Shown here one piece after another: positions 37,891 through 46,174 of a stretch of DNA of 64,000 nucleotides. Position 1 is the first letter of the stretch. Each line of letters begins with the position of its first letter. Origin of the DNA: Streptacidiphilus rugosus AM-16 (GTDB lineage: Bacteria > Actinomycetota > Actinomycetes > Streptomycetales > Streptomycetaceae); NCBI RefSeq assembly GCF_000744655.1, contig NZ_JQMJ01000004.1, positions 1,364,001 through 1,428,000 of the forward strand. The letters are read 5' to 3'. A program made the position numbers and the translations under genes. The notes under the pieces were generated by a model, which did no database searches, was not told where the DNA came from, and saw only the letters and a program-made list of their open reading frames with translations.

Positions 37891-39366
37891 TCAGATGATC
37901 TGCGGGCGAGCCTTGCGCGGCATCGCCCTGCTGATCTCCGAGCGCAGCTCGGAAACGGCCGGCAGTCTCTCGTAACGCGCTGTCAGGCGGTACATCTGCC
38001 GCAGCCGGTCCCAGGTGCGGTGCGAGGACATCTCCCCGGTCGCGCTGAGCGCGAGCTGCGCGTAGCGCTGCGCCTCGTCCGGCTTGTTGGCCAGGTAGCA
38101 GGCGGAGGCCATCGAGATGTGGTCGAACAGCTTGGACCTGTCGTGGCCCCCCTCGCGCAGCTCCAGCGCCAGCAGGGCGTGCCGCTGCGCCAGGGGCGCC
38201 GCCGTGGGGTCGTGGTCGGCCAGGGTGCGGTAGGTCAGCGCCTGCATGCCGTGCAGGTCGGCCAGGTCGAAGAACTGCAGCCAGCTCGGCCCCGGCTCAC
38301 CGGTGTCCTGGGCGAAGAGGTCCTCCGCCTCGCCCAGGGTGCGCCGGGTGGCCTGGCTGTGGCCCAGTGACGCGTGCGCCCAGGCCTCCACCGTGCGCAG
38401 CATGGCGCGCGTGCGCGGCAGGGTGCCGCCGCCCGCGCCGGCCTCGGCGACCCGCATCAGGTCCAGGGCGTCGCCGGCGCGGCCCAGGTGGACCATCTGA
38501 CGGGCGGCGCGCGCCAGCGCCTCGCTCGCCCGCGGCTTGTCCTCCGCCTCACGGGCGGCGTGCACGGCCATGACGAAGTACTTCTGCGCCGTCGGCTCCA
38601 GCCCCACGTCGTGGGACATCCACCCGGCCAGCACGGCCAGGTTCGCCGCCACGCCCCACAGGCGGCGCTCCAGGTAGTCGGGGTGATCGTAGGTCAGCAT
38701 GCCGCCGACCTCGTTGAGCTGGCCTACCACCGCCTTGCGCTGCAGTCCTCCGCCGCGGGAGGCGTCCCACCGGCGGAAGACCTCCACCGACTCCTCCAGC
38801 GCGCTCACCTCGTCCTCGCCCACGGGGCCGGCCTCGTAGAAGTCGAGCGCCGGCAGGGCCGAGGGGCTGCGCACCGCGGCGGCCGACGAGCCGGCCGGGG
38901 GCGGTGGCGCGGCCGGGGACCGCATCCAGTCGTACAGGGGGTTGGCGATGGCGGCGCCCGCCGCGAGGGCGGTGCTCGCGCCCATCAGTCCGCGTCGATT
39001 GAGCATCAGGTCCATTCCCGTGAACTCGGTGAGGACCGCGGCTGTCTGCCCTGGCGCCGGTCTGGAGCTGTCCGGCGCGCCTCGTCGCGCGCCGGGCCCA
39101 CTGTGCCGTTCCCGTTGGAAGCCGAGGTCCTCTGGCGTGACTACTCGGCCGAGCTGCTCGCTGAAGAGAGCCGCCAGGATGCGCGGGACGGGATCGCGGG
39201 GAATCTCCCCGCGCTCCATCCAACGGCGCACCCGCGAGGTGTCGGTCGACAGCTGCTGCTGTCCGGCCGCCGCCCCACGGCGGTTGACCATCCGCGCCAA
39301 CTCGCCTTTCGACCAGCCCGTCAGGGCGAACAGATCGGCGAATCGGGTGTTCGGTCCTCGGTTCAC
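37891..39366 (-). CDS. nsdB: NsdB-type regulator (XRE-like N-terminus plus TPR-like repeats)
   Basis: A 491-residue streptomycete regulator. The N-terminus shows a helix-turn-helix (TRFADLFALTGWSKGELARMVNRRG, then STDTSRVRRWMERGEIPRDPVPRILAALFSE). A linker contains the characteristic LTEFTGMDLMLNRRGLMGAS. The rest is TPR-like helices (GQLNEVGGMLTYDHPDYLERRLWGVAANLAVLAGWMSHDVGLEPTAQKY). This pattern is what I recall of NsdA/NsdB proteins, negative regulators of sporulation and antibiotic production in S. coelicolor; the linker and opening fit NsdB better than NsdA. It is divergent from an APH-fold kinase, with repeats in the shared promoter. Confidence 0.8.
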   Translation of the reverse strand: MNRGPNTRFADLFALTGWSKGELARMVNRRGAAAGQQQLSTDTSRVRRWMERGEIPRDPVPRILAALFSEQLGRVVTPEDLGFQRERHSGPGARRGAPDSSRPAPGQTAAVLTEFTGMDLMLNRRGLMGASTALAAGAAIANPLYDWMRSPAAPPPPAGSSAAAVRSPSALPALDFYEAGPVGEDEVSALEESVEVFRRWDASRGGGLQRKAVVGQLNEVGGMLTYDHPDYLERRLWGVAANLAVLAGWMSHDVGLEPTAQKYFVMAVHAAREAEDKPRASEALARAARQMVHLGRAGDALDLMRVAEAGAGGGTLPRTRAMLRTVEAWAHASLGHSQATRRTLGEAEDLFAQDTGEPGPSWLQFFDLADLHGMQALTYRTLADHDPTAAPLAQRHALLALELREGGHDRSKLFDHISMASACYLANKPDEAQRYAQLALSATGEMSSHRTWDRLRQMYRLTARYERLPAVSELRSEISRAMPRKARPQII

Positions 39367-40983: not shown

Positions 40984-42027
40984 TCAGAGGGGTGAGGAGC
41001 CCGCCTCGTGGAGGACGACGTCCTCGCGGGGCAGCAGGGCCCTGACGCTGACCGCGTCGCGCAGATGACGTTCGAGCGGGACGACGCGGCTGAGACCCGT
41101 GGCCCCGGAGAGGGCGACGACCCGCTGCACGACGGAGAGGCCACGCTGCGCGATGCCGGGAGCGAGCCAGGCGGCTCGCCGGTCCGCGCCCGCCAGGTCC
41201 GCGTCGAGGCCGCCGGCGATGCCGTTCAACAGCTCCTCCGCCTCCGCGAGTTCGAGCGCCACCCGGCCGAGCTCCGAGGCCGGCAGCCCCCTGCCGTTCC
41301 TGGCCAGCCAGGTGTGCGCGCCGCCGCCGATGCCCAGACAGACCGCGGCGATCGCCAGCCGACGGCAGGCCTCGTCACGGGGGGTGGGCGAGGCGAGCCG
41401 GTGGGCGTCCTGCGCCTGCACCTTCTCGAAGTGCACGTCCTGCACCGCACCGGCGCGCAGTCCGAGCTGCTCCCAGCCCGGTTCGACGGCGACTCCCGGG
41501 CTGTCCCCCGGCACCAGGAAGGTCGCCCGCTCCTCCGCCGTGTCTTCGAGCCGCGCCTCGACCGTCATCCAGGCCAGTGCCTCGGCACCGGGAACCGCCT
41601 GCTCACGGCCGGTCAGCAGCCATCCCTCCGAGCCGCGCGAGGCCGTCACCCCCGCCCCGCCCTCGGCGGCGCGCAGCGAGCCGACCAGCGCCGGACCGCG
41701 CCGGGAGTCGGCGAGCAGGGACTTGTACGCGGCGGCGGGCCAGCGGGCGGCCCGCGCCTGGGCGGCATGGGTGAGCAGGGTGTCCGCGGCGAGCAGCGCG
41801 ACCGAGGGGTCGCCACCGCCGAGCGCCGCGAGCAGCCGGACCGTGTCCGCCACCCCCGCGCCCACGCCGCCGTGTTCCGTGCCGACGGTCAGCGTCAGCA
41901 GACCGGCCTCGTGCAGCGCCTCCACTCCCCGGTAGGGGAAGGCCGCCTCACGGTCGTGCTCGTCGGCCCGCGCGGCGAGCAGGTCGACGACGCGCGGCAG
42001 CCGCGCCATGGCTTCGTTCAGCGACAT
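40984..42027 (-). CDS. Acyl-CoA dehydrogenase family flavoprotein
   Basis: A 347-residue protein of the acyl-CoA dehydrogenase fold, rather short for the family (about 380). N-terminal helical domain (FPYRGVEALHEAGLLTLTVGTEHGGVGAGVADTVRLLAALGGGDPSVALL), middle beta domain (SLRAAEGGAGVTASRGSEGWLLTGREQAVPGAEALAWMTVEA), and C-terminal helices (SGATGLSRVVPLERHLRDAVSV, the usual FAD-side segment). The catalytic Glu cannot be placed with confidence, so it may be a DszC/monooxygenase-like or non-classical member. The next gene upstream (42040-42534) is 12 bases away and probably shares its transcript. Confidence 0.82.
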   Translation of the reverse strand: MSLNEAMARLPRVVDLLAARADEHDREAAFPYRGVEALHEAGLLTLTVGTEHGGVGAGVADTVRLLAALGGGDPSVALLAADTLLTHAAQARAARWPAAAYKSLLADSRRGPALVGSLRAAEGGAGVTASRGSEGWLLTGREQAVPGAEALAWMTVEARLEDTAEERATFLVPGDSPGVAVEPGWEQLGLRAGAVQDVHFEKVQAQDAHRLASPTPRDEACRRLAIAAVCLGIGGGAHTWLARNGRGLPASELGRVALELAEAEELLNGIAGGLDADLAGADRRAAWLAPGIAQRGLSVVQRVVALSGATGLSRVVPLERHLRDAVSVRALLPREDVVLHEAGSSPL

Positions 42028-42039
42028 CCGCGGACCCGA

Positions 42040-42534
42040 TCAGATCTGGAACATGTCCGCGGGCAGGGGCTTCAGCAGCCGGTAGAGATCCTCGCTGACC
42101 GGCCGGTCCCAGGTCACCACGGTCACCTGGACGTCGTCGCTGCGACCGAACTGGACACAGGCGAGCCGGCTCTCGCTCAGCTTGACCTTCTTCACGATCA
42201 GCAGCGCGTCGTCCAGCATGACCGGGAAGTCCTCGCTGTCGAGGACGCCGACCGGCTCGTCGTTGCCGATGGCCGCCAGCATCTGCCGCACCTCGAGCGG
42301 CACGCCGTCCTCGGGCTCCCTGGCCGGCGAACCCGGACGCAGGTTGCCGATCATCATCGAGGGGCCCCGCCCGCCCATCAGGTCGTAACGCAGCACCACT
42401 CCGTGGCAGCTGCCGTCCTCCGGATCACTGAGCAGCGCGGCGCCGAAGTCGCCGGGCCAGTCGCTCGGGTCCATGGCGAGAATGTCGAAGTCCGGGCCTG
42501 CGGGTGTGCCGGAGCGGCGGCGAAGAAAAGCCAT
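42040..42534 (-). CDS. Conserved hypothetical protein
   Basis: A 164-residue soluble alpha/beta protein with no recognised domain. Its segments (FDILAMDPSDWPGDFGAALLSDPEDGSCHGVVLRYDL, VRQMLAAIGNDEPVGVLDSEDFPVMLDDALLIVKKVKLSESR, VTVVTWDRPVSEDLYRLLKPLP) have the even codon bias of a real gene. It starts at ATG 42534 and is followed after 12 bases by the acyl-CoA dehydrogenase gene. Nothing in it suggests a catalytic role. Confidence 0.7.
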   Translation of the reverse strand: MAFLRRRSGTPAGPDFDILAMDPSDWPGDFGAALLSDPEDGSCHGVVLRYDLMGGRGPSMMIGNLRPGSPAREPEDGVPLEVRQMLAAIGNDEPVGVLDSEDFPVMLDDALLIVKKVKLSESRLACVQFGRSDDVQVTVVTWDRPVSEDLYRLLKPLPADMFQI

Positions 42535-42610
42535 GGGGCAATCGTACGTGTCCGCCGAGGTCGCGAACGCGTGCCAGGGGGCCGGTTCGGGTCCGGCCCC
42601 GAGACGCAGG

Positions 42611-42640
42611 TTGACGCGGCGATCACGTTCCGATTACGGT
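42611..42640 (+). promoter_or_regulatory. Vegetative-type promoter for the leader peptide
   Basis: TTGACG (42611-42616), an 18-base spacer and TACGGT (42635-42640, fitting TANNNT) form a good sigma-HrdB-type promoter. The predicted start of transcription falls at or within a base or two of the ATG at 42648, so the message would be leaderless. Confidence 0.7.
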
Positions 42641-42647
42641 CGGCGAC

Positions 42648-42743
42648 ATGCAGAGATCGCCGCATCTGGTGAGCAGGGGTCATATCGACCTGCTACGGGT
42701 GGCTTCCGCTGCGTGTTTCCGCGCCTGCCCCCCGAGCCGTTGA
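42648..42743 (+). CDS. Putative cysteine-type attenuation leader peptide, leaderless
   Basis: A 31-codon frame, ATG to TGA, with the core HIDLLRVASAAC at residues 12-23 and a second Cys at 27 (codons TGT and TGC). Actinobacterial short peptides with an H-[IV]-D-L-x-R-x-[AS]-S-A-x-C core are known to me as 'putative leader peptides' placed before sulfur-metabolism genes; in mycobacteria cysteine-rich leaderless leaders respond to cysteine. Here the promoter at 42611-42640 puts the transcript start at the ATG. An in-frame GTG at 42669 is an alternative. A second 32-codon frame starts at GTG 42751. About 200 bases downstream lies a strong terminator (42944-42988), and the next gene is an ankyrin protein with its own promoter. 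Confidence 0.72.
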   Translation: MQRSPHLVSRGHIDLLRVASAACFRACPPSR

Positions 42744-42943
42744 CGCCTCGGTGAGCCCGCAGCGGCCGTCGGACGACCCACTGGGATCGCTCGGGATCAC
42801 TGGTGAGCCTGCGGACCGGCTGCGCGTTCTGCGAACCTGGACCCCGTAACCCGGAAGAAACCGAAGTACTCGCCTGCCCTGCCCTGACCGGCCGGGTCGG
42901 CGGGCCCGCTCCGCACCGCGTGGGGGCGAGCGAGAGCGGGCTG

Positions 42944-42988
42944 GGCGCCGCGTCGACCCCGTGGGGGTGGTCGGCGCGGCGCCTTTTT
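42944..42988 (+). terminator. Strong intrinsic terminator with U-tract, attenuator candidate
   Basis: GGCGCCGCG (42944-42952) pairs with CGCGGCGCC (42975-42983). The stem extends inward by TCGACC/GGTCGG with one wobble, and TTTTT follows directly (42984-42988). True U-tracts are rare in this genome. No other plus-strand gene lies upstream for over 900 bases, so it must end the leader-peptide transcript. A smaller hairpin, GCCCGCTC/GAGCGGGC, lies just before it. Confidence 0.85.
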
Positions 42989-43017
42989 CGGTTCCCCCAC
43001 AGCGGGTGCCGAGGCTC

Positions 43018-43151
43018 TAGACTTCCGGTGGCGCTCCGGGGCGCCACCCGTCCGCGGACAGGGCCGAGCCCACCCGGCTGTGCGTTGCGGCATCGGCATC
43101 GCCCTCCCTCCTTTCAGCCCGGCGCAGCGGACCGCGGGCCCTGGAAGGAGG
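43018..43151 (+). promoter_or_regulatory. -10 box and structured leader that can sequester the ribosome-binding site
   Basis: TAGACT (43018-43023) fits a -10 box. A perfect 8-bp hairpin follows at once, GGTGGCGC-TCCGGG-GCGCCACC (43027-43048). Further on, CCTCCTTTCAG (43107-43117) can pair along all 11 bases (one G-U) with CTGGAAGGAGG (43141-43151), which contains the ribosome-binding site GGAAGGAGG of the ankyrin gene. The ~128-base leader thus looks like a translational switch; no ligand class is recognised. Confidence 0.5.
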
Positions 43152-43156
43152 TCGCC

Positions 43157-44650
43157 GTGGCGACCGTGCGTCTTCCCGACGACCCGAGCTTCGAGCAACT
43201 GCGCAAACAGGCCAAGGATCTTCGCGACCACGCCAGGTCCGGCGCCCCGGACGCGCTGGCCCTGGTGGGCGCTCACCACCCGGACGGGCCGCACCCGCCG
43301 TCACTGGCCGGTGCGCAGCTGGTCGTCGCCCGCCACCACGGGTTCCCTTCCTGGGCCGCGCTCAAGCGGCACGTCCAGACCATCCGGCAGTACCGCAGGG
43401 TCCCCGACCAGGTGGACGCGGCGATCTCCCGCGCCGACGAGTTCCTGCTGCTGGCCTGTCTCCGGTACGGCCACGACGACGACCCGGCCCGCTGGCGGCG
43501 GGCCGCGGCACTGCTCGCCGCCCACCCCGACCTCGCCACTGCCTCGGTGCACGTGGCGGCGGCCGCGGCCGACGGCGACGCGCTCGCCGGCCTGCTCGCC
43601 GCGGATCCGTCGGCGGCCGCCGCGGAGGGCGGCCCGTTCGCGTGGGAGCCGCTCCTGTACCTGGCGTACGCCCGGCACGATCCCTCCGTCAGCGCGGACG
43701 CCGTCGCCCGGACCGCCGGCATGCTGCTCGACCACGGCGCCGACCCGAACGCCGGCTATCTGTGGCACGGTCTGACCTCGCCCTTCACCGCGCTGGCCGG
43801 AGCCCTGGGCGGCGGCGAGGGCGGGCAGCCGGCCCATCCGCGAGCCGCCGCTCTGGCCCGCACCCTGCTGGCCGCCGGCGCCGATCCCAACGACGCCCAG
43901 GCCTTGTACAACCGCCAGTTCGGGTCCGCCGACGACCACCTGCGGCTGCTGATCGACCACGGCCTCGGGCACGGCGACGGCGGCCCGTGGCGGGCACGGC
44001 TGGGGAACGCGATCGCCTCCCCCGCCGACCTGATCGCCGATCAACTCTGGTGGGCGGTCTCCCACGATCTCGTCGGGCGGGTGGGTCTGCTGGCCGAGCG
44101 CGCCGACCTGCGTGCCGCCTTCAGGTTCCGCGACGATCGCCCGGCGCACCGGCGCGTCTGGGACGGCAGCACACCGGCACGCCTGGCCGCGCTGTGCGGC
44201 AGCACCGAGGTGCTCGGGTACCTGGCCGCGCACGGCGCTCCCTGGTCACCGGCGGACGACGTCGACGCACTCGTCGCGGCGGCCCTGGCCGGCGATCGGG
44301 CCGGCGTCGAACGCTTGCGCGCGCACGCCGACGCCGCGCGCCGGCAGCGACCAGGGCTGGTCGTCTGGGCGGCGGCCCGCGGAGCCTGGCGCGCCGTGCC
44401 ACTGCTGGTGGCGCTCGGATTCGACGTCAACGCGCTGGGCCGCGGCGACATCCCGCTCGACCAGCCGTGGGAGACCGCGCTGCACCAGGCGGCGGCCGCC
44501 GACGACGTGACCGGCGCGAACCTCCTGCTCGACCTGGGCGCCGACCCGGACATCCGCGACGCCCGGTTCGACGCCACCCCCCTGGGCTGGGCCGAGCACT
44601 TCCACCACACCGCCGTCGCCCACGTCCTCCGGCCACGAACGAGCCGATGA
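43157..44650 (+). CDS. Ankyrin-repeat protein
   Basis: A 497-residue soluble protein. The N-terminus (LRKQAKDLRDHARSG, VVARHHGFPSWAALKRHV) is the conserved opening of a group of actinobacterial ankyrin proteins. Ankyrin-type repeats follow: LLDHGADPNAGY, LLAAGADPNDAQALYN, GSTPARLAALCGSTEVLGYLAAHGAP, and TGANLLLDLGADPDIRDARFDATPLGWAEHF at the end. The GTG start has an excellent GGAAGGAGG site that may be hidden in a hairpin. Likely a protein-binding scaffold. The convergent MerR gene ends 24 bases after it. Function unknown. Confidence 0.85.
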   Translation: MATVRLPDDPSFEQLRKQAKDLRDHARSGAPDALALVGAHHPDGPHPPSLAGAQLVVARHHGFPSWAALKRHVQTIRQYRRVPDQVDAAISRADEFLLLACLRYGHDDDPARWRRAAALLAAHPDLATASVHVAAAAADGDALAGLLAADPSAAAAEGGPFAWEPLLYLAYARHDPSVSADAVARTAGMLLDHGADPNAGYLWHGLTSPFTALAGALGGGEGGQPAHPRAAALARTLLAAGADPNDAQALYNRQFGSADDHLRLLIDHGLGHGDGGPWRARLGNAIASPADLIADQLWWAVSHDLVGRVGLLAERADLRAAFRFRDDRPAHRRVWDGSTPARLAALCGSTEVLGYLAAHGAPWSPADDVDALVAAALAGDRAGVERLRAHADAARRQRPGLVVWAAARGAWRAVPLLVALGFDVNALGRGDIPLDQPWETALHQAAAADDVTGANLLLDLGADPDIRDARFDATPLGWAEHFHHTAVAHVLRPRTSR

Positions 44651-44673: not shown

Positions 44674-45015
44674 TCAGAGCCGGGCGAGCTCGTCGGCCAG
44701 CATGCGACGGGTGGCGCGCAGCGATGCCATCCTGGCGTCGATGTCGGTGATCTGGGCGTGCAGCCGTTGCCGCGCGCGCTCGCACGGCGTCAGCTTCCCG
44801 TCCTCGGCGAAGCACGGGAGCAGCCGGGCGACATCGTCGAGGTCGAGCCCGATCTCCAGCAACTGCCTGATCCTGCGGACCCGTTCGACGGTGGGCTCGG
44901 GGAAGTCACGGTAGCCGTTCGCCAGCCGTTGCGAGGGCAGCAGCCCGTTCTGGTCGTAGTGCCGCAGCGCCCTGGGGCTGACCCCGGTCCGTCGGGCGAG
45001 CTCGCCGACGCGCAT
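44674..45015 (-). CDS. MerR-family transcriptional regulator
   Basis: A 113-residue MerR protein: N-terminal winged helix (MRVGELARRTGVSPRALRHYDQNGLLPSQRLANGYRDF), then RVRRIRQLLEIGLDLDDVARLLPCFAEDG and a C-terminal coiled coil (QRLHAQITDIDARMASLRATRRML). Two Cys (LLPC and LTPC) lie where metal-responsive members have ligands, but a third is missing, so metal sensing is doubtful. It is divergent from an amidohydrolase gene whose promoter has the 20-base spacer and dyad expected for MerR activation. Confidence 0.93.
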   Translation of the reverse strand: MRVGELARRTGVSPRALRHYDQNGLLPSQRLANGYRDFPEPTVERVRRIRQLLEIGLDLDDVARLLPCFAEDGKLTPCERARQRLHAQITDIDARMASLRATRRMLADELARL

Positions 45016-45079: not shown

Positions 45080-45865
45080 ATGATCATCGACTTTCACGCG
45101 CACGTCACCGTCGACGTCCCCGCTCAGCTGGCTCGTGCACGGCGGGCGGGGGTGACGCGCACGGTGCTGCAGTCCACCCGCGTCCATCCCGAGGCGCCGA
45201 CGACACTGGACGGCCTGCGTGCCGAGTTCGCCCGGCTGGTCGGGGTGGTCGGCGGCGAGGCGGCCGCGGAGGAGGAGTTCCGCGCGGCGATGGCGGAGCT
45301 CTGCGCCGCTCTGGACGCACACCCGCAGGAGGCCGTCGGTCTCGCGAGCGCCCGCCTGGGGGTCGACGCCGAGCGGACGACGGCCGCCTGGCTCGACTCC
45401 GCGCTCGCCCGACCCGGCATCGTGGGGATCGGCGAGCTGACGCCCGCCCCCGGCCGGGCCGAGCTCATCGAGCCGGCACTCGCGGTCAGCGCCGACCACG
45501 GTGGCGTGCCCGTCCTGGTGCACGGCTTCGCCCCGAACACCGTCGAGGACCTGCGCACCTACGCCGCGCTGGCCGCGCGGTACCGCACCGTGCCGCTCGT
45601 CGTGGGCGCGCTGGGCGGGTTCAACTGGCTGGAGCTCGTCGACCTGGCCCTGCAGACGCCCAACCTGCACATCGAGCTGTCCAGCGCGCTGCAGGTGTTC
45701 GCGGTCCGGGCCGCGGTGCGCGAGCTGCCGGAACGCTGCCTCTTCGGCTCCAATACGCCCTACGGTGACGTCGTCGCGGCGCGCCGCACCGTCGAGGCCG
45801 CCGTGGACGACAGGGCGGTGCTCGCCCTGGTCCTCGGCGGCAACGCGGCGCGCCTCGTCGGGTGA
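45080..45865 (+). CDS. Amidohydrolase-superfamily protein
   Basis: A 261-residue TIM-barrel hydrolase of the amidohydrolase-2/TatD-like type. It opens with MIIDFHAHVTVD (metal-binding HxH). Further on are GIVGIGELTPAP, VPVLVHGFAP (metal His), VGALGGFNWLELVDLA and CLFGSNTPYGD (catalytic-site region). Substrate is not evident. The message is probably leaderless, made from the MerR-type promoter just upstream, so expression should depend on the divergent MerR regulator and its inducer. Confidence 0.82.
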   Translation: MIIDFHAHVTVDVPAQLARARRAGVTRTVLQSTRVHPEAPTTLDGLRAEFARLVGVVGGEAAAEEEFRAAMAELCAALDAHPQEAVGLASARLGVDAERTTAAWLDSALARPGIVGIGELTPAPGRAELIEPALAVSADHGGVPVLVHGFAPNTVEDLRTYAALAARYRTVPLVVGALGGFNWLELVDLALQTPNLHIELSSALQVFAVRAAVRELPERCLFGSNTPYGDVVAARRTVEAAVDDRAVLALVLGGNAARLVG

Positions 45866-45889: not shown

Positions 45890-46174
45890 TCAGGTCAGGT
45901 CGAACTCGCCGTCGCGGGCGCCGAGTACGAAGGCGTTCCACTCGGCCGGGGTGAAGATCAGCGACGGGCCCTCGGGGCTCCGTCCGTCGCGCATGGCGAT
46001 GAATCCGTCCACGAAGGCGATCTGCACGTCGCCCACGCCCTGGCTGCTGGACAGCCACTCGGCGCCGCTCAGATCGAGAGGGGGTTTGCTTCCGTCAACG
46101 CCACTCTCGAATGGACCCCGCTGAGTGAGAACCCCGGCCCCCGCGGATTCGTCGAAGAATGCGTCGCTCGTCAC
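45890..46174 (-). CDS. DUF397-family protein
   Basis: A 94-residue small acidic protein. Typical DUF397 features are visible: LSGAEWLSSSQGVGDVQIAFVDGFIAMRDGRSPEGPSLIFTPAEWNAFVLGARDGEFDL. These proteins usually accompany a helix-turn-helix (XRE/DUF5753) regulator in streptomycetes and may act as its partner. Here no such regulator is adjacent, so this is an orphan copy. GTG start with GGGAGGAG well spaced upstream. Confidence 0.88.
   Translation of the reverse strand: MTSDAFFDESAGAGVLTQRGPFESGVDGSKPPLDLSGAEWLSSSQGVGDVQIAFVDGFIAMRDGRSPEGPSLIFTPAEWNAFVLGARDGEFDLT

Follow-up and report, generated by a model that had tools for sequence, protein, structure and literature searches.

Cysteine leaders of actinobacteria (NCBIfam NF042934, cis_reg_atten; the Ms4527A and Ms5788A families) share with the locus described here a leaderless ATG, an HxDLxRVASAxC core and Cys codons near the end. 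Canestrari et al. 2020 is said to be on actinobacterial cysteine leader peptides of this kind. In mycobacteria, cysteine-rich leaderless uORFs are described upstream of the genes they are thought to regulate (PMC4633059), whereas nothing co-directional follows our unit in its usual arrangement, and of eight leader peptides reported from S. lividans RNA-seq none is given as cysteine-dependent (PMC8079986). Beyond the actinobacteria, the uORFC-8-2 motif of Rhodobacterales, as described in PMC8632094, places a cysteine uORF before cysS; it resembles our unit in its uORF with Cys codons, two prominent stems and terminator-like end, but it is followed by a U run and cysS, and belongs to another class of bacteria. 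A further likeness is offered by rnTrpL of Sinorhizobium meliloti, an attenuator RNA which begins at the ATG of its leader ORF, acts as an sRNA in trans and encodes a peptide that also acts in trans (PMC7298713). For our unit, both a start at the leader ATG and trans action are predicted. However, rnTrpL arises by attenuation before trpE(G), according to the same source, whereas our unit stands alone and has orthologues without a peptide.

Structured RNAs of other kinds need to be compared as well. ANTAR-target RNAs are described as two stem-loops with six-base loops, A at position 1 and G at position 4, joined by a linker of 2-25 nt (PMC8164766). Streptomyces possesses sRNAs with C-rich loops, such as scr5583 (PMC3765725); like these and 6C sRNA (RF01066), our unit has loops rich in a single base, which in its case are G-rich and without an Rfam match. 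Ms1 (scr3559), which in S. coelicolor is reported to occupy the sco3558-sco3559 interval, next to a HAD hydrolase (PMC9130861), is likewise a free-standing structured RNA of actinobacteria; as far as that description goes, its surroundings differ from those of our unit, which is flanked by a gene that we call F1 and by a DUF397 gene. Here, we analysed a window of 64,000 nucleotides from the 9.0-Mb genome of Streptacidiphilus rugosus AM-16, to which all positions refer, and we read the unit within it as an undescribed structured RNA. At a probability of roughly 0.6, we take it to be a free-standing RNA gene acting in trans and not a cis attenuator, which in Streptacidiphilus carries a cysteine leader.

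Locus, promoter and leader peptide

The divergent neighbour F1 (42040-42534, minus strand) encodes a conserved 164-aa protein of unknown function and occurs almost throughout the family (119 of 121 genomes). The usual convergent neighbour is F6 (45890-46174, minus strand), a DUF397 protein (Pfam PF04149). In the window, a block with approximate borders at 43017 and 45865 comprises an ankyrin gene with its upstream region (gene at 43157-44650, plus strand), a MerR gene (44674-45015, minus strand) and an amidohydrolase gene (45080-45865, plus strand). The start codons of the immediate neighbours, at 42534 and 43157, are 622 bases apart, in agreement with the gap of about 620 bases given by the initial annotation.

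Within this gap, we predict a plus-strand promoter of the TAnnnT type at 42611-42640, consisting of TTGACG (42611-42616), an 18-nt spacer and TACGGT (42635-42640). The prediction draws on the sequence itself and on a genus-wide pattern: searched with up to three mismatches, the promoter-to-ATG pattern TTGACNNNNNNATCACGTTCCGANTACGNTCGGCNACATG occurs in one copy per genome in 14 of 14 genomes of the genus and in 0 of 47 others. What had been called a consensus promoter does not deserve the word consensus, as a scan of 42000-43700 for consensus elements returned no promoter and no terminator; the scan requires four matching -10 bases, and TACGGT has three of six. We think that it also overlooked the 3' hairpin H2 (see below) because an uninterrupted stem leaves a loop larger than 8. 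The A of the ATG at 42648 is the eighth base past the -10 element, the expected position of a start site, so that the coincidence of start site and start codon proposed initially is upheld at the level of prediction.

This ATG opens a leaderless ORF for a cysteine leader peptide of 31 amino acids (42648-42743 including the stop, plus strand) with Cys at positions 23 and 27; its length and the number of its Cys codons are as the initial annotation had them. The peptide, MQRSPHLVSRGHIDLLRVASAACFRACPPSR, scores 32.8 bits with NF042934 ('putative leader peptide'), whose cut-off of 27 is passed by four of the ten Streptacidiphilus unit peptides scanned, a set leaving out G002, G007, G008 and G013. 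For codons 1-23, pN/pS is 0.25 across nine species, and the two other frames give the opposite; by this computation, purifying selection acts on the leader peptide. Furthermore, a Cys close to the C-terminus is retained in 12 of the 14 Streptacidiphilus units, the exceptions being G005, whose peptide has no Cys, and G013, whose peptide is frameshifted. The alignment of relatives that had been called for thus speaks for the peptide frame throughout nine species and for the Cys codons in most genomes. The G013 assembly (L055) is 76% complete and carries F1 in two overlapping pieces besides the frameshifted leader, which suggests indel errors.

Five leaders in this genome, including that of the unit, exceed the NF042934 cut-off. 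The other four all stand before genes of families used in sulfur metabolism, namely a protein like 3-mercaptopyruvate sulfurtransferase (below its NCBIfam cut-off), a ThiS-family protein, a nitrite/sulfite reductase-type protein (the locus end cuts the gene, and its matches do not separate the two enzymes) and an SsuE-type FMN reductase. A further leader-like peptide (L070) stays below the cut-off at 21.5 bits; the gene after it resembles by look a 2-oxoglutarate-dependent oxygenase, with no NCBIfam match, and is possibly an unlisted cysteine-controlled gene.

To place the unit within the genus, 14 Streptacidiphilus genomes, the window's own among them, were queried with 42600-43180 by BLAST. 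Both ends of 42600-42983 were recovered in all 13 other genomes, as one full-length match in six (G002, G004, G006, G007, G008, G009) and as two end pieces in seven. F1 was called beside the unit in 12 of the 13, and placed there by coordinates in the last (G003). On the 3' side, the next gene called by a simple ORF caller lies on the minus strand and faces the unit in 13 of 13, being F6 directly behind it in ten; where neighbours were annotated, those named behind the unit encode the DUF397 protein and one resembling a thiolase, and both genes face it. Ordinarily, therefore, there is no gene in cis to attenuate, and the co-directional downstream gene that marks a cysteine cis attenuator was the next gene called in none of the 13. 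In five genomes, a 74-aa plus-strand ORF occurs behind F6 where others carry the minus-strand thiolase-like gene, which we take to be a wrong call. Beyond F1, an NsdB-type DNA-binding protein is encoded at 37891-39366 (minus strand; NF050135, 852 bits, cut-off 700), and of the 13 other genomes, 11 have a member of this family called in the unit's vicinity. An acyl-CoA dehydrogenase-like gene (40984-42027, minus strand), whose best NCBIfam match is the sulfur acquisition oxidoreductase SfnB at 65.7 against a cut-off of 430.9, was not called beside the unit in six of the 13.

Twin GUGGGG hairpins at the 3' end

The leader ORF ends in a small hairpin, CCGAG...CTCGG, which lies across the stop codon (42732-42751, plus strand), is kept in seven of seven members of the window's clade and has a putative function. 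It is followed by a spacer (42752-42902) whose length and sequence depend on the clade, as seen in the alignment. Two hairpins then follow on the plus strand, H1 at 42903-42942 with its hexaloop GUGGGG at 42920-42925, and the terminator-like H2 at 42945-42982 with GUGGGG at 42961-42966, in the window separated by a 2-nt linker. Fold prediction presents the GUGGGG loop in each of them, and in H2 a closed five-base loop and a bulged U. H1 and the identity of the two loops had been overlooked by the initial annotation, which saw in H2 a true intrinsic terminator. The hairpin is indeed there, followed by a C and a T5 tract (42984-42988), and the unit's transcript is predicted at about 341 nt. However, while H2 is found in 14 of 14 genomes of the genus, T5 follows it in this species only (1 of 14 in the alignment), so that the U tract cannot be the conserved feature. 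An intrinsic terminator can accordingly be claimed for this species alone.

Judged by alignment, the twin 3' hairpins are the best-conserved part of the unit, their loops being invariant and their stems variable. Pairing was tested on an alignment of 14 sequences, 13 of them distinct, over 26 pairs, and standard pairing was found in 338 of 338 cells, in a structure that was derived from plus-strand folds, which biases the test in its favour. At four pairs of the outer H1 stem, both sides have changed with every cell still paired. None of 500 shuffles matched the cells paired, the 11 double-changed cells or the covariation score; four double-changed pairs were reached by 57 of 500 and the 13 further pair types by 301 of 500, so that these latter two counts are not decisive. 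Furthermore, 23 cells are G-U on the plus strand, equivalent to A-C mismatches on the minus strand, and A-C cells number zero. The fold is more stable on the plus than on the minus strand in 14 of 14 Streptacidiphilus; compared with shuffles, the 3' module is more stable (z -3.51), and the whole RNA shows a modest excess of stability (z -1.95). A minus-strand RNA with C-rich loops is rejected in Streptacidiphilus on the wobble cells and the fold energies. Two ideas about targets were also dropped: loop pairing with the start codon of F1, judged by eye, because some species lack CCCCAT, and CCCCCACG as a guide to targets in this genome, because its 442 matches are fewer than the 746 of the reversed control and so indicate no target.

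The H1-H2 pattern is present in a single copy in each of the 14 genomes of the genus, the window's included, and was found in none of 283 other genomes of the family; a covariance model, run under the stricter filtering applied to large sets, returned the same 14 out of 249. In a database of genome contigs, the exact pattern yielded nine records, all from Streptacidiphilus. The exact H1 core also matches 11 genomes of genus g9 and two of g6, all of the GGYG or CGCG type, which we regard as chance, since the reversed control matches similar numbers of g9 and g6 genomes. Rfam 15 gave no match at gathering score anywhere in the window, and a permissive scan of 42500-43200 returned ctRNA as its single, weak match (15.6 bits against a gathering score of 45; E 2.4). 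The Ms1 model RF02566 matched neither this genome nor any control, and is uninformative here. Among the titles listed from the open-licence PMC literature, none was on this RNA.

Orthologues outside Streptacidiphilus

Since F1 is found in nearly the whole family, its divergent side could be searched for GTGGGG, over up to 1,500 bases, at 37 loci outside the genus (17 best F1 matches and 20 from a second set). Both hairpin motifs, with CGCGTGGGGGCG, occur at 14 of 14 loci of genus g14, chosen for their best F1 matches, and at the single locus of g3, which is represented by one genome. One of three g11 loci (L106) has H2 plus, by eye, an altered H1, and the pair was found at none of 19 loci from 12 other genera. 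In g14 and g3, H2 is recognisable by a GCGCCG outer stem as a similar hairpin in the same place, and by hand count the H1 core is present in 56 of 70 g14 genomes, with adjacency to F1 checked for the examined loci. A collection of 43 g14 and g3 loci, some sharing a genome, comprises 31 distinct sequences; when trimmed, the hexaloop folds in 26 of 26 H1 and 14 of 14 H2 among the distinct g14 sequences, and in wider windows the predicted fold differs for one g14 H1 (L174) and for the g3 H1 (L135). For H1 of g14, the plus strand is the more stable in 14 of 26, with 8 G-U, 2 A-C and 9 other non-pairing cells, a mixed result that favours neither strand. From the size of the genus, our guess is that g14 may be Kitasatospora.

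The 5' part of these orthologues is of another make. In six aligned g14 loci, the promoter reads TTGACT-18-TACGTT and no ATG stands at the expected start. This promoter is almost invariant across the six sequences, and at L109, L111, L113, L116, L117 and L121 an inverted repeat, GCTCAG(A/G)G-11-CTCTGAGC, lies over the -35 element about 300 bases before H1, looking like a site for a regulator. A search for leader-like ORFs was negative for 13 of 14 g14 loci and in the remaining one (L117) hit an ORF that starts upstream of the expected start site; at the g3 locus, no cysteine leader was seen by eye, and L106 of g11 has a Cys-less ORF, MQRSARPVTRSQGDLLRVAAARR, without an NF042934 match. As the twin hairpins of g14 and g3 occur without the leader, the twin-loop RNA looks like the wider part of the unit and the leader peptide like the narrower one. 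For the same reason, cysteine gating cannot be its core function.

Alternative explanations and possible function

The initial annotation had left three options, namely a decoupled attenuator acting as a small RNA, the remnant of a lost sulfur operon, and an ankyrin gene under cysteine control. The last of these, in which the unit's leader would attenuate the ankyrin gene, fits the window, where ankyrin is the next plus-strand gene, but is contradicted by the arrangement elsewhere, where a convergent minus-strand gene takes that place. The ankyrin, MerR and amidohydrolase proteins were not found in the 13-20 kb round the unit in the 13 other genomes, and the region from 43017 on, which lies upstream of the ankyrin gene, matches separately in G011 and G003; in both, an ankyrin gene of 79-80% identity is located away from the unit and has a conserved upstream region of its own, and neither MerR nor amidohydrolase was found in these two short loci. 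On this synteny, we reject the idea, and give it next to no chance. That the unit is a relic, a cysteine attenuator left behind by the loss or relocation of its sulfur gene, with a decaying peptide and hairpins as by-products, could explain why the peptide matches a leader family, why it is broken or Cys-less in two of 14 genomes and why a Cys-less version persists in one g11 genome (L106). We consider it quite improbable, given the pN/pS of the peptide in nine species, the absence of any gene immediately following in the same direction in the 13 others and the twin hairpins without a leader in g14 and g3. A lost sulfur operon also finds no support in the named neighbours, which are DUF397 and thiolase-like proteins. 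An ancient origin of the unit from the leader of such an operon is conceivable. Of the three, the evidence best supports the first option, a decoupled attenuator working as a small RNA, with the next called gene on the opposite strand in all 13 other genomes.

Other explanations take the hairpins themselves as a starting point. H1 and H2 might merely end the transcripts coming from the unit and from the facing DUF397-thiolase genes, being conserved for termination only; the facing gene in 13 of 13 genomes and the very stable H2 would suit such a convergent terminator, which we nevertheless regard as unlikely, since a T tract occurs in one of 14 species, the loops are invariant although the stems change, and the Streptacidiphilus wobble cells suit one strand only. 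Alternatively, the unit could be a sponge for 6C sRNA, its two G-rich loops kissing the two C-rich loops of 6C. Matches to 6C exist in 42 of the 46 relatives searched, this genome included, where 6C is located on a different contig; its loops are C runs in the 17 loci examined, and modelled as free duplexes with the genome's own two 6C loops, CGUGGGGGC would reach -12.8 and -13.0 kcal/mol, and GUGGGG alone -7.8 kcal/mol. However, any G run can pair with any C run, and C-run loops also occur where the unit does not, namely in genera g6 and g15 and in relatives from beyond the family, so that no co-evolution is seen; the odds of this proposal are slim. Slimmer still are those of a target RNA, or sponge, for ANTAR-domain proteins, to which the paired GUGGGG hexaloops with G at position 4 and the 2-nt linker of the window would conform. 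Position 1 is G in every aligned sequence, as opposed to the A of ANTAR loops described in PMC8164766; between the loops lie 163-202 nt in g14 and 88 nt in g3, while the 2-nt linker of the window falls within the 2-25 nt given there, and no gene stands directly behind the unit.

We therefore return to a free-standing RNA gene acting in trans. Conserved structure and promoter sequence are combined with the lack of a gene in cis, as in a free-standing sRNA gene, and the unit is very probably a conserved plus-strand RNA gene with working twin hairpins. Transcription, trans action and any response to cysteine are what we infer beyond that. If transcription begins, as predicted, on the first base of the ATG, the RNA would double as leaderless mRNA for the cysteine leader peptide, with the leader ORF followed by the variable spacer of roughly 90-200 bases and then by the two GUGGGG hairpins. 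These twin loops would be the working end, binding a partner twice and in trans; loops that stay invariant in two hairpins whose stems change point to such recognition, and action in trans is, in our judgement, probable. Candidate partners are a protein, C-rich segments of mRNAs, or sRNAs with C-rich loops such as 6C. If charged tRNA-Cys became scarce, a ribosome held at the Cys codons might alter how the 3' part folds, whether it is completed or how stable it is; the peptide's family and the selection on it suggest that translation of these codons affects the RNA, and gating by cysteine in Streptacidiphilus is a tentative proposal that we hold with some doubt. Somewhat less likely still, a cysteine leader ORF may have been added onto an older free-standing twin-hexaloop RNA, yielding an sRNA whose 3' end is gated by stalling.

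Attenuator leaders are usually viewed as cis switches, with rnTrpL as a case that works in trans too. Here, a leader that is not immediately followed by a co-directional gene in 13 of 14 species is joined to a structured RNA outside Rfam, a compact and strongly conserved twin-loop RNA. If our reading is true, amino-acid attenuation would control a trans-acting RNA rather than a gene, and Streptacidiphilus and another genus would offer a natural comparison of one RNA that has an amino-acid-sensing ORF in the former and lacks it in the latter.
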